This document shows positions 1 to 25,585 of a stretch of 32,936 nucleotides of DNA, in pieces. The position numbers and the translations under genes were made by a program. The notes below the pieces were generated by a model, which saw only the letters and a program-made list of their open reading frames with translations, had not been told where the DNA came from and did no database searches. Origin of the DNA: an uncultured Bacteroidota bacterium. Lineage in GTDB: Bacteria; Bacteroidota; Bacteroidia; 2-12-FULL-35-15. Each line of letters starts with the position of its first letter. Within the stretch, counting starts at the first letter, position 1. The stretch covers positions 1 through 32,936 of the forward strand of contig CAIWDF010000135.1 in assembly GCA_903911435.1 (NCBI GenBank), read 5' to 3'.

Positions 1-455
1 CATACCCTATCCACCCCATACAGACATCTCATAATTGGCATACAGGTATCTCATACACCGTATACAGACATCTCATAAACCATATACAGACATCTCGTAA
101 ACCGTATACAAGCACCCCATACCCCCATTTCGCCACCCCATATTCCGTATACAGGTATCTCATATAAAGCATACAGGTATCTCATAAACCGTATACAGAC
201 ATCTCATAAACCGTATACAAACATCTCGTAAACCGTATACAAACATCTCGTAAACCGTATACAGACATCTCATAAACCGTATACAAACATCTCGTAAACC
301 GTATATCCATATCTCGTAAACCGTATATCCACTTCTCCCAAACCGTATATCCACATCTCCCAATCCGTATGTCCTATTCTCCCAACTCGTATATTCTGTT
401 CTCCCAATAGACATTTCCACTCCTCCCAAACCGTATCTCCACATCTCTTATCTCC
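1..455. repeat. 22-bp degenerate tandem repeat array, about 20 copies
   Basis: The unit is about aaccgtatacagacatctca plus ta, 22 bases, repeated about 20 times. It is best conserved at about 160-310 and decays to the right, where units become pyrimidine-rich (tccacatctccca). It is cut by the left window edge. Because 22 is not a multiple of 3, successive copies pass through all three frames, and the minus strand stays open over 160-444 as a repetitive shadow peptide. The rest of the stretch to 625 is A+T-rich and holds only the promoter-like site at 584. I see no gene here. Whether this is an intergenic satellite or has a structural role cannot be told. Confidence 0.9.
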
Positions 456-18890: not shown

Positions 18891-19196
18891 TCAAATCCAC
18901 ACTTCAAAATCGCAGCGATTGTCCAATATAGCCAATACCTCTACTGTTGATTTTTCGATTCTATAAAATACTGAGAGCGGTTTACTCAAAACAGCACGCC
19001 TCACATTTTTCTTTTTAGTTGTTTTGGGGTAGAGTTGTGGATAGGATATCACAACTGATTCGAACGATTGCAACAAAGAAAAAAAATGATCCACTTCTTT
19101 TTGTGAAAACTTATTTGATAAATACTTTTTTATAGCAGTTGCATTGCTTAAGGAAGTGCTAGTATAAACAATTTGTTTAATCCTTATTTCAGACAT
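18891..19196 (-). CDS. RelE/ParE-superfamily toxin
   Basis: A 101-residue basic protein. The pattern of a helix with spaced Leu/Phe (YLSNKFSQKEVDHFFSLLQS), a basic KKKNVRRAVLSKPLSVFYRI stretch and a final VEVLAILDNRCD strand is that of plasmid-stabilisation (RelE/ParE) toxins. Its ATG region overlaps the end of the upstream antitoxin gene by 8 bases, the normal antitoxin-first order. Whether it is an mRNA interferase or a gyrase poison cannot be read from sequence. Confidence 0.82.
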   Translation of the reverse strand: MSEIRIKQIVYTSTSLSNATAIKKYLSNKFSQKEVDHFFSLLQSFESVVISYPQLYPKTTKKKNVRRAVLSKPLSVFYRIEKSTVEVLAILDNRCDFEVWI

Positions 19197-19425
19197 TTTT
19201 TATCTTCTTCCAAAAATCTTTAGAGTCAATTACCTTTCCTTCATCTGCATCTTTTATGCCTGATAAAATTTGCTTTTTTTGAACTGTTGATAATTCATTC
19301 CACCAATCTTCGTTTGCTCTTGAAAGTCGAATTCCATCGAGAAAAGAGATTAACTCTTTGTCTGAGAGTTGATTTATCCAGCTTATCAAATTAAGTTTTA
19401 TTCCATTTAGTTCTGCTGTTGACAT
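19189..19425 (-). CDS. Antitoxin of the RelE/ParE pair
   Basis: A 78-residue, largely helical protein with an N-terminal helix (LNLISWINQLSDKELISFLDGI) and a C-terminal half WWNELSTVQKKQILSGIKDADEGKVID, the pattern found in antitoxins paired with ParE-type toxins in Bacteroidota. The acidic GIKDADEGKVI stretch is the usual toxin-neutralising segment. A TATCTTTGT promoter element lies 17 bases before the ATG, giving a very short leader that could allow autorepression. Confidence 0.8.
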   Translation of the reverse strand: MSTAELNGIKLNLISWINQLSDKELISFLDGIRLSRANEDWWNELSTVQKKQILSGIKDADEGKVIDSKDFWKKIKNV

Positions 19426-23879: not shown

Positions 23880-24524
23880 TTATAATGGTCTAGCTACCAC
23901 AGGGTCGCTATAAGTAAGGTCGGCAACGGTGCCCATGGCAAACGAAACGAATTTGTAATCTACCTTACTTTCTAAATTTTTGATGGTTCCATGGCGGTGT
24001 GCTGCATAGAAGAACGTCCAAAGTGCAGGGTTGGGTTCCAAGTTGTCGGCTTTGGTGTACATTAGTCCGTATCTTACCGCATTGGCTTTAACGTTGGAAA
24101 TAGAAAAATCAACTTCTTGTATTCCTGGAATAAGGGTAAGTACGGTTTGTTCGAGCTTGCCCTGTGCTTCGCTTTCTTTTTGCAATGGATAACCTGTTTT
24201 TTGAAGTAACCCAAGGTCGGGGCCACAAAAATCGTTGAGCCAATTTCCATTTTTAGTAATCATTTTCTGAGTTTTTAGTCGAGCGGTGGCGGTGTCGCCA
24301 GTTTTGCCCGCATAGGGTGCCGAATTGCGAACGGTATTGTAAATTACAATCATGGAGCCAAGGCTGCCTGCTGGTAGTGGTCCTAGGGTACCCATTGCTA
24401 TCGGGATTCCAGGATAGAGCGCTGTGTTTAAGGTTAATAAATTGAAAATAAGCATTACAGCATCATAAAAATTACTGTCGCTTAGATCACTTAGGTCTGT
24501 GTTAAGTTTAGGACTTTTTGCCAT
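23880..24524 (-). CDS. Uncharacterised Bacteroidota protein with FN3-like C-terminal half
   Basis: A 214-residue protein without signal peptide or membrane segment. The N-terminal part has a helical stretch with DLSDLSDSNFYDAVMLIFNL and a Gly/Pro-rich segment; the C-terminal part alternates strands (VDFSISNVKANAVRYGLMYT, WTFFYAAHRHGTIKNL, YKFVSFAMGTVADL) like a fibronectin type III fold. This resembles a family of ~200-residue Bacteroidota proteins with a helical N-terminus and FN3 end, of unknown function, which I recognise only by pattern. It is the last gene of a minus-strand cassette after a heptad-repeat protein (62-base gap) and an HTH-like protein, and a strong terminator follows. Its leader just before the ATG is A-rich. 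Confidence 0.75.
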   Translation of the reverse strand: MAKSPKLNTDLSDLSDSNFYDAVMLIFNLLTLNTALYPGIPIAMGTLGPLPAGSLGSMIVIYNTVRNSAPYAGKTGDTATARLKTQKMITKNGNWLNDFCGPDLGLLQKTGYPLQKESEAQGKLEQTVLTLIPGIQEVDFSISNVKANAVRYGLMYTKADNLEPNPALWTFFYAAHRHGTIKNLESKVDYKFVSFAMGTVADLTYSDPVVARPL

Positions 24525-24586
24525 TTTTTTTTGTTTTTAATTGTTAATCTATCTGTTTTTGTTTGTTCTGTATTTAAAGTTTTAGG

Positions 24587-24844
24587 TCAAAATTCGAAGG
24601 TCATGAAGTTTCCCGTCTCCTTCACGACTTTTTTCATTTCCGCGATGACTTTTATGTTCTCCGTCATGACTTTTTTCGTTTCCGCGATGACTTTTATGCT
24701 CTCCGCTACGACTTTTTTCGTTTCCGTCACGACTTTTATGTTCTCCGCGATGACTTTTTCTGTTTCCGTTATGACTTTCATGTTCTCCGCTACAACTTTT
24801 TTCGTTTCCGTCACGACTTTTATGGTTTCCGTCACGACTTTCAA
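24587..24844 (-). CDS. Small 7-residue-repeat helical protein
   Basis: An 85-codon reading frame starting with TTG (no in-frame ATG between it and an upstream TAG; agaggg lies just before it). Residues 1-75 are about ten copies of K-V-[VI]-[TA]-E-[TNS]-x, for example KVVTETK and KVIAENI, ending in a short unique tail. The seven-residue period puts Val/Ile on one helix face and Lys/Glu elsewhere, as in a coiled coil or amphipathic rod. Variation between copies is conservative in this frame (V/I/M, T/A, T/N/S), which favours true coding on this strand. It lies between an HTH-like gene and an FN3-like gene. I do not know its function; LEA-like, tail-fibre-like or structural roles are possible. 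Confidence 0.5.
   Translation of the reverse strand: MKVVTETIKVVTETKKVVAENMKVITETEKVIAENIKVVTETKKVVAESIKVIAETKKVMTENIKVIAEMKKVVKETGNFMTFEF
24628..24840. repeat. 21-bp tandem repeat with 42-bp higher-order alternation
   Basis: About ten 21-base units. Two unit types alternate for most of the array: ttttttcgtttccgtcacga (plus c) and ttttatgttctccgcgatga (plus c). It is the DNA form of the 7-residue repeats of the gene at 24587-24844. Confidence 0.88.
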
Positions 24845-24916
24845 ATTTCCCTCTTTAATTTCCTGCTAAATCCATTGACTTGTTATAGTTTTAGACTGCT
24901 TTTTTAAAGATTTCTT

Positions 24917-25267
24917 TTATTCGTTCGACCTATTTTTTTGTTCCTTTTTTTCGTAAATCATCAATTTGTCATTTGCTATCTTAAGCTCTTCTTGCAACCT
25001 ATAGATCTCTAGCGTCTGTTTTCTTATTGTTATACCTTGCATTTCTGCTTCAAACTCTTTGTCGTCAGTTATCGTAGGTTCGGGGAAAACGATATTGAAA
25101 TATTTTTCTACATTTCTCCGATAAGGTTCTTTTAATGTTTCCTGATGAAAAAGTTTGTAAAGTACCGAACGAGAAGTGCCTATTTGTCGAATAAACTCTT
25201 GTTCCGAAAACAATTTCTTTTTCTTTAGTTCTTCAAATTTCCCTTTTAAATATTTCCCCTCGTCCAT
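24917..25267 (-). CDS. Small HTH-like DNA-binding protein with C-terminal coiled coil
   Basis: A 116-residue charged protein. Residues ~8-55 (KFEELKKKKLFSEQEFIRQI, then GTSRSVLYKLFHQ) read as a helix-turn-helix of XRE or resolvase type, with TSRSVLYKLF as the recognition helix. The C-terminal 45 residues (ITIRKQTLEIYRLQEELKIA) form a probable coiled coil. It heads the cassette with the heptad-repeat and FN3-like genes, so it may be the local regulator. I do not recognise a specific family, and no clear TAnnTTTG element precedes it. An alternative is a phage- or plasmid-type accessory regulator. Confidence 0.65.
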   Translation of the reverse strand: MDEGKYLKGKFEELKKKKLFSEQEFIRQIGTSRSVLYKLFHQETLKEPYRRNVEKYFNIVFPEPTITDDKEFEAEMQGITIRKQTLEIYRLQEELKIANDKLMIYEKKEQKNRSNE

Positions 25268-25485: not shown

Positions 25486-25544
25486 AATTGAACAATTGCC
25501 TACTGCAAAATTGTGTAATTGAACAATTGCCTACTGCACAATTG
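25486..25544. repeat. CAATTG-rich direct repeat, two copies of 28 bp at 31-bp spacing
   Basis: aattgaacaattgcctactg plus cavaattg-type ends occurs at 25486-25513 and 25517-25544, differing at one base (a or c). A third partial copy, gcaaaattgcc, follows at 25544-25554. Each contains the palindrome caattg. Confidence 0.85.
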
Positions 25545-25576
25545 CAAAATTGCCCTTTATGGCCAATAAAAAACAA

Positions 25577-25585
25577 TACATTTGC
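25577..25585 (+). promoter_or_regulatory. Putative -7 promoter element of the two-gene envelope operon
   Basis: TACATTTGC is a full TAnnTTTGY match, 26 bases before the ATG at 25612. A TTG at 25550-25552 is a possible -33 element at slightly long spacing and lies at the end of the CAATTG repeats. Confidence 0.55.

Follow-up and report, generated by a model that had tools for sequence, protein, structure and literature searches.

The window analysed here, a stretch of 32,936 nucleotides that makes up contig C135 of the 4.19 Mb draft genome of an uncultured Bacteroidota bacterium, carries on its minus strand, from 25267 to 23825, a cassette in which the ORF listing and TRF place an HTH-like ORF, then a tandem array of 21-bp units, and then an ORF of 214 aa, with a terminator at its end (Table 1). 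The initial annotation had described three neighbouring minus-strand ORFs ending in a strong terminator, and this arrangement is borne out by the coordinates and by the stem and T-run that close the cassette. The relatives present in GenBank are uncultured Bacteroidetes MAGs, and several of their isolate names suggest lakes or reservoirs. Elsewhere, the window contains two small overlapping genes (18891-19425) that have the look of a ParE/RelE-type toxin and its antitoxin, and short 31-bp and 8-bp repeats (AATTGAACAATTGCCTACTGC) at 25486-25552, upstream of the plus-strand gene at 25582. Rfam gave no match in the window.

Table 1. Features of the minus-strand cassette and the evidence used for each.
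Feature	Positions	Strand	Evidence
Putative regulator of 116 aa; small HTH (weak) and probable coiled-coil protein	24917..25267	-	Pfam, pN/pS
Tandem array, probably non-coding; 21-bp period, ~11 units	24616..24841	-	TRF, period scan, coding tests
Leader from array to start codon; A-rich just 5' of the ATG, likewise in homologous loci	24525..24615	-	
FN3-like protein of 214 aa	23880..24524	-	Structure model, Foldseek, purifying selection
Intrinsic terminator at the end of the cassette; stem of 14 pairs followed by a T-run	23858-23825	-	

The FN3-like gene is real and selected: 9 of 59 relatives contain homologues, its own genome carries five copies, and it is under purifying selection (pN/pS 0.13-0.39). 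No Pfam, NCBIfam or PADLOC model matches its product, and a PADLOC search for known defence systems matched none of eight proteins. In the AlphaFold model of the protein (pLDDT 88.6), an N-terminal 4-helix bundle (residues 16-108) is followed by a C-terminal FN3 beta-sandwich (129-211), and the sandwich matched FN3 domains in a Foldseek search against the PDB (E about 1e-4); on the basis of this model, the gene is predicted to encode an FN3-domain fold. The FN3-like label given initially is therefore upheld for the beta-sandwich, although it has no counterpart in Pfam, and the helical bundle had gone unnoticed. A phage origin was rejected, as there was no match in phage records or viral contigs; against viral structures, Foldseek returned generic FN3 domains. 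A second family, of 220-aa helix+FN3 proteins, was first met beside arrays, after which its members were searched for by protein similarity alone. Its structure models have the same element order as the FN3-like family, hhalign detected no homology between the two, and both are present in largely the same species. The product of the first gene of the cassette had been taken for an HTH/coiled-coil protein, a view that holds only in part: the HTH match in Pfam is weak (HTH_26, E 0.13), and the coiled-coil look was judged by eye from the lysine/glutamate-rich C-terminus. The pN/pS of this gene is 0.48, and homologues of the protein at two loci (L002 and L003) are encoded directly 5' of arrays with periods of 21/42 bp, which in turn lie in front of other genes.

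The array between these two genes has a best period of 21 with a score of 0.71, the 99th percentile of the best score in shuffled sequence being 0.47, and TRF also detects higher-order periods of 42 and 84 bp. It ends ~90 bp 5' of the FN3-like start codon and overlaps an 85-aa ORF with a TTG start (24587-24844, minus strand), which the initial annotation had tentatively interpreted as the gene of a helical-rod protein, taking the conservative variation of the repeat as a sign of selection. Neither proposal withstands closer analysis. The array is open on the opposite strand as well (112-aa ORF), as readily happens with periods divisible by 3, and the within-array pN/pS of the proposed frame (0.60) does not differ from that of two antisense frames (0.61 and 0.58), while the values of the two genes on either side are lower (0.13-0.39 for the FN3-like gene, 0.48 for the HTH gene). 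Composition and column variability show no 3-bp component across 74 arrays. Stops are present in all three sense frames of 34 of the 52 arrays located upstream of the two families, and the fraction of these 52 arrays with an open sense frame (0.35) shows no excess over that obtained after column permutation (0.38). In addition, some arrays have a period of 22 bp, and the units of homologous loci are unrelated. Conservation of the frame in relatives had been named beforehand as the test of the protein reading; the frame is not conserved, and that reading fails. A heptad-repeat protein was thus rejected as a general rule on account of the pN/pS values, the lack of a 3-bp signal, the closed frames, the 22-bp periods and the turnover of the units, and the middle element of the window is probably not a gene. 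Annotation pipelines will nevertheless go on calling such arrays short repeat proteins. One array related to that of the window is present at L034 (962-1379; G000:C258). Its ORF is 258 bp, as in the window, with 67% aa identity in the same frame and 52 differences, 23 of which are at third positions; it has no FN3-like gene alongside and adjoins another, unrelated 21-bp array.

The cassette recurs, as had been anticipated. TRF detected 21-bp arrays upstream of nearly every FN3-like copy, with a different unit each time, and a small protein is encoded on the same strand just upstream in ~11 of the 19 FN3-like loci with enough flank. Periods of 12-34 were scanned in up to 800 bp upstream of 40 FN3-like homologues, which had been found by protein similarity alone and span many families of Bacteroidia; the best period was 21 in 33 of them and 22 in another 3. 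Upstream of the 220-aa family, the best period was 21 in 25 of 28 cases. Among 626 ordinary genes of a relative, 21 was the best period in 77; 39 reach a score of at least 0.5, and these are mostly beside genuine arrays. The arrays are associated with both gene families, the enrichment over this background having Fisher values of about 1e-21 (FN3-like) and 1e-18 (220-aa family), and a 21 x 9.9 array is also present at an FN3-like locus in a different class of the phylum. The period is constant: degenerate arrays (about 50% identity) peak at exactly 21 all the same, and so do L027, L106, L113 and L116, whose scores are at or near threshold and of which the last three have a weak 21-bp signal. 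Identity at lag 10-11 is depleted in the FN arrays, which indicates that the full 21 bp is the unit. As for a 10.5-bp composition signal, W/S content is not raised and single bases give only a modest one. The units have a weak 7-bp W/S component, which is driven partly by L109 and L110. At these two loci, perfect 7-bp tandem arrays (GCTGTTG at 2477-2538 of L109 and AACCCAG at 841-954 of L110) lie beside 21-bp arrays, 21 being 3 x 7. A length of 21-22 bp corresponds to two turns of B-DNA.

In contrast to the period, the sequence of the arrays turns over freely. Once protein identity falls below about 65%, the units are no more alike than by chance. At the syntenic locus L006/L007, the FN3-like proteins are 76% identical, the flanking genes 78 and 84%, and the period is kept, whereas the identity of the units is 0.38 against a chance value of 0.45; here, the unit has been wholly replaced while the gene and the period stayed. 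Within one genome, the pairwise identity of the units is the same as that of shuffled units (0.478 in both cases), and the 40 arrays found in 800 kb of the relative G027 are mutually unrelated except for one pair. A dispersed repeat family was rejected for this reason, the exceptions being that pair and the array of L034 related to that of the window. Guide-like targets were rejected as well, given that the 13-mers of the G027 arrays match other positions in the 800 kb sampled no more often than expected. Selection seems to act on the spacing of the repeats and not on their sequence, an uncommon situation for a bacterial element of any kind.

Arrays number 39-62 per Mb in two genomes that have the families, whereas a congener lacking them shows none in the 230 kb sampled. 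According to inspection, about half of the 40 arrays of G027 are located 5' of a few small unannotated families and the rest near ordinary genes; four are between convergent genes. The array-led families on its contigs C1-C3 (L059-L078 and L173-L192) include proteins of 300 aa with a CarboxypepD_reg-like end, of 253, 220 and 310 aa, and others. The intergenic region between divergent genes at L063 (13606-14684) contains three mutually unrelated arrays with a 21-bp period. A further array in the window (13-447, about 14-20 units) precedes an amino-acid permease gene at the edge of the contig; its period is 22 bp, in a genome in which 21 dominates. Contigs end in or beside 21-bp arrays at L014, L022, L088, L098 and other loci; draft assemblies may thus break there, and the array counts are lower bounds.

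In 14 of 36 loci, the Bacteroidota promoter element TAnnTTTG lies no more than 110 bp 5' of the array, a rate several times that found farther upstream; L013 deviates in having it between the array and the gene. A word search of the 5' flanks of the arrays returned GTTCTTT, and the enriched k-mers were mainly promoter and boxA words. Including variants, this boxA-like motif is present in 25 of 52 5' flanks, a position between promoter and untranslated RNA like that of boxA in rrn leaders, and in 0 of 41 regions farther upstream and 0 of 55 regions between array and ATG. It is strand-specific, with 4.1 hits/kb on the sense strand compared with 0.5 on the antisense strand. The rRNA leader of the same genome contains TACTTTTGTCGCCCC, followed by GTTCTTTAAAA and GTTCTTTGAAA. 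It has been reported that boxA is located upstream of 16S RNA and of CRISPR arrays, and that the boxA of the Legionella pneumophila Lens CRISPR array is the 11-mer GTTCTTTAAAA (PMC7862264). Because this 11-mer occurs in the rRNA leader of the genome itself and is identical to the Legionella boxA, the GTTCTTT-type motif is, by its sequence, boxA. Promoter and boxA occur together in 11 of 55 array-led loci versus 2 of 644 genes of G027 (p 2e-11); of the latter two genes, one belongs to the 220-aa family. The median distance from boxA to the ATG is 446 bp. The enrichment is restricted to protein-led loci: only 3 of 80 array ends in G027 have the motif, and boxA was rejected as a general feature of arrays. 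The rRNA leader at L230 (about 950-1300; G000:C218) has, upstream of the 16S gene, a promoter-like sequence that occurs three times in nearly identical form (TACTTTTGTCGCCCCAAACAAA), and a GTTCTT-like word comes after each copy. A purine-rich, GGGAGG-like stretch extends between promoter/boxA and the first unit in the 5' flanks of L006, L009, L010, L017, L018 and L023, and runs of 10 purines are about twice as common in the 5' flanks of FN3-like arrays as farther upstream. In the window, the interval from the HTH gene to the array showed neither promoter nor boxA, and this array is therefore probably co-transcribed with the HTH gene.

Given the promoter and boxA located 5' of the array and the lack of a coding signal inside it, the arrays at these loci are probably transcribed, most likely as an untranslated RNA leader under antitermination. 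The explanation that we judge best, and about which our confidence is evenly divided, is that the repeat is a non-coding 21-bp array (elsewhere also 22-bp) in the 5' untranslated leader of a gene encoding a helical bundle and an FN3 domain, and that it is transcribed in the typical locus. There, a Bacteroidota promoter (TTG...TAnnTTTG), together with a boxA-like signal for antitermination (GTTCTTTGA), would start a transcript of ~450 nt or more, which would remain untranslated through 8-15 units before entering the protein gene, while the gene of a small, putatively DNA-binding regulator frequently lies directly upstream. The array may act as transcribed RNA that is multivalent, mildly self-complementary and locus-specific; it may work together with the downstream protein or in its control, and the two-turn period may be needed for this function. 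It should be noted, as an argument against a functional RNA, that an inert untranslated leader would call for antitermination too.

The main rival, which we consider unlikely, is that the array functions as DNA, i.e. as a row of often dyad-symmetric sites that are two turns apart on one face of the helix and are bound by a locus-specific regulator, often the adjacent HTH protein, which would control the FN3-like gene. Consistent with this, a period of 21-22 bp keeps the phase of the helix, the depletion at lag 10-11 makes the full 21 bp the unit, and several of the small proteins encoded upstream are LuxR/response-regulator or HTH (GerE/HTH) proteins by Pfam. The units are also more dyad-symmetric than flanking 21-mers (p 4e-9). 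They fold more stably too (p 4e-7), and the gain in structure is equal on both strands, so that the dyads do not favour RNA over DNA. However, ~40-60 unrelated arrays per Mb would need equally many specific proteins, and many arrays have no adjoining regulator. Moreover, the regulators of L008 and L015 have recognition helices that are similar by eye, whereas their units are at chance similarity (0.43), and the promoters are mostly located 5' of the array. We find it less likely again that the arrays are minisatellites of mutational origin, made and erased in tolerant intergenic DNA by a slippage or staggered-break process favouring 21-22 bp, and either functionless or serving as phase-variable length switches. 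Fast sequence turnover, higher-order periods of 42/63/84 bp, and the presence of arrays near many other genes and between convergent genes would all follow from such a process. It does not account for the association of about 90% with two protein families, compared with 6-12% in the background, that is kept across the phylum, nor for the exact peak at 21 of degenerate arrays, the low indel rate taken from TRF (2.0% in 21-bp arrays versus 6.5% in arrays of other periods) or the array-free congener; given the fixed position and the gene association across a phylum, a purely mutational origin is insufficient. The protein reading, in which the 85 codons encode a helical rod that works with HTH and FN3 partners, is very improbable, since the frame of equal length that is open in the window and in L034 and the purine-rich stretch 5' of its TTG are outweighed by the equal pN/pS of the antisense frames, the missing 3-bp component, the closed frames, the 22-bp arrays and the unconserved units. 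A wider, tentative possibility is a phylum-wide RNA-protein system of the Bacteroidota, in which each locus would pair a two-turn repeat RNA of its own, arbitrary in sequence and under boxA antitermination, with a helical-bundle/FN3 partner, and a dedicated process would build the arrays in steps of 21-22 bp whatever the starting sequence.

The initial annotation knew of no described system with such a set of components, and we likewise found no description of arrays of this kind in the literature searched, which is a subset of the whole; they apparently form a large class of DNA arrays in bacteria that has gone undescribed. Among the intergenic repeats already described in bacteria, BrickBuilt and the TAACTGA heptamers come closest; both conserve sequence, and neither fits, nor do CRISPR or TIGR arrays. 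BrickBuilt is a minisatellite-MITE of Porphyromonas gingivalis consisting of intergenic tandem 23-nt units without spacers; it is transcribed, and dyad-symmetric stem-loops have been reported for it (PMC4596501). It resembles the arrays described here in belonging to the Bacteroidota, in its contiguous intergenic units and in its changes in copy number, but its 19 copies share one conserved unit with a conserved leader and tail (PMC4596501). The arrays described here each have their own unrelated unit, with unit identity within one genome at the shuffled level, a period of 21-22 bp, and dedicated protein families downstream. The TAACTGA heptamers are intergenic direct repeats upstream of start codons, in some Bacteroidetes included, and are suspected regulators; they consist of short sets of one fixed heptamer without a fixed downstream gene family (PMC4679880), whereas our arrays vary freely in sequence but have a fixed spacing. 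CRISPR arrays with boxA leaders, described in PMC7862264 with reference to Stringer et al. 2020, resemble the present loci in combining a long untranslated repeat array with an upstream promoter, a boxA of identical sequence (GTTCTTTAAAA) and a nearby gene for a partner protein. They differ in having unique spacers between the repeats; our units are contiguous, the k-mers of the arrays match nothing else in the sampled chromosome, and no cas genes were noticed in the neighbourhoods read. In TIGR-Tas systems, a tandem array is likewise located next to one small protein, and the repeat is conserved within a locus and variable between loci; their units run in the order edge repeat, spacer, loop repeat, spacer, and their protein contains a Nop domain (PMC12045711). 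The arrays described here lack such alternating repeats with two variable spacers; they are self-similar at 21 bp throughout, the variation being spread over the unit, and the FN3-like protein consists of helices and FN3 without a Pfam match. The present arrays, in which selection seems to act on spacing, are tied to protein families that have no Pfam, NCBIfam or PADLOC model, and their boxA leaders link them to the few long RNAs, namely rRNA and CRISPR RNA, that are untranslated and protected from termination.
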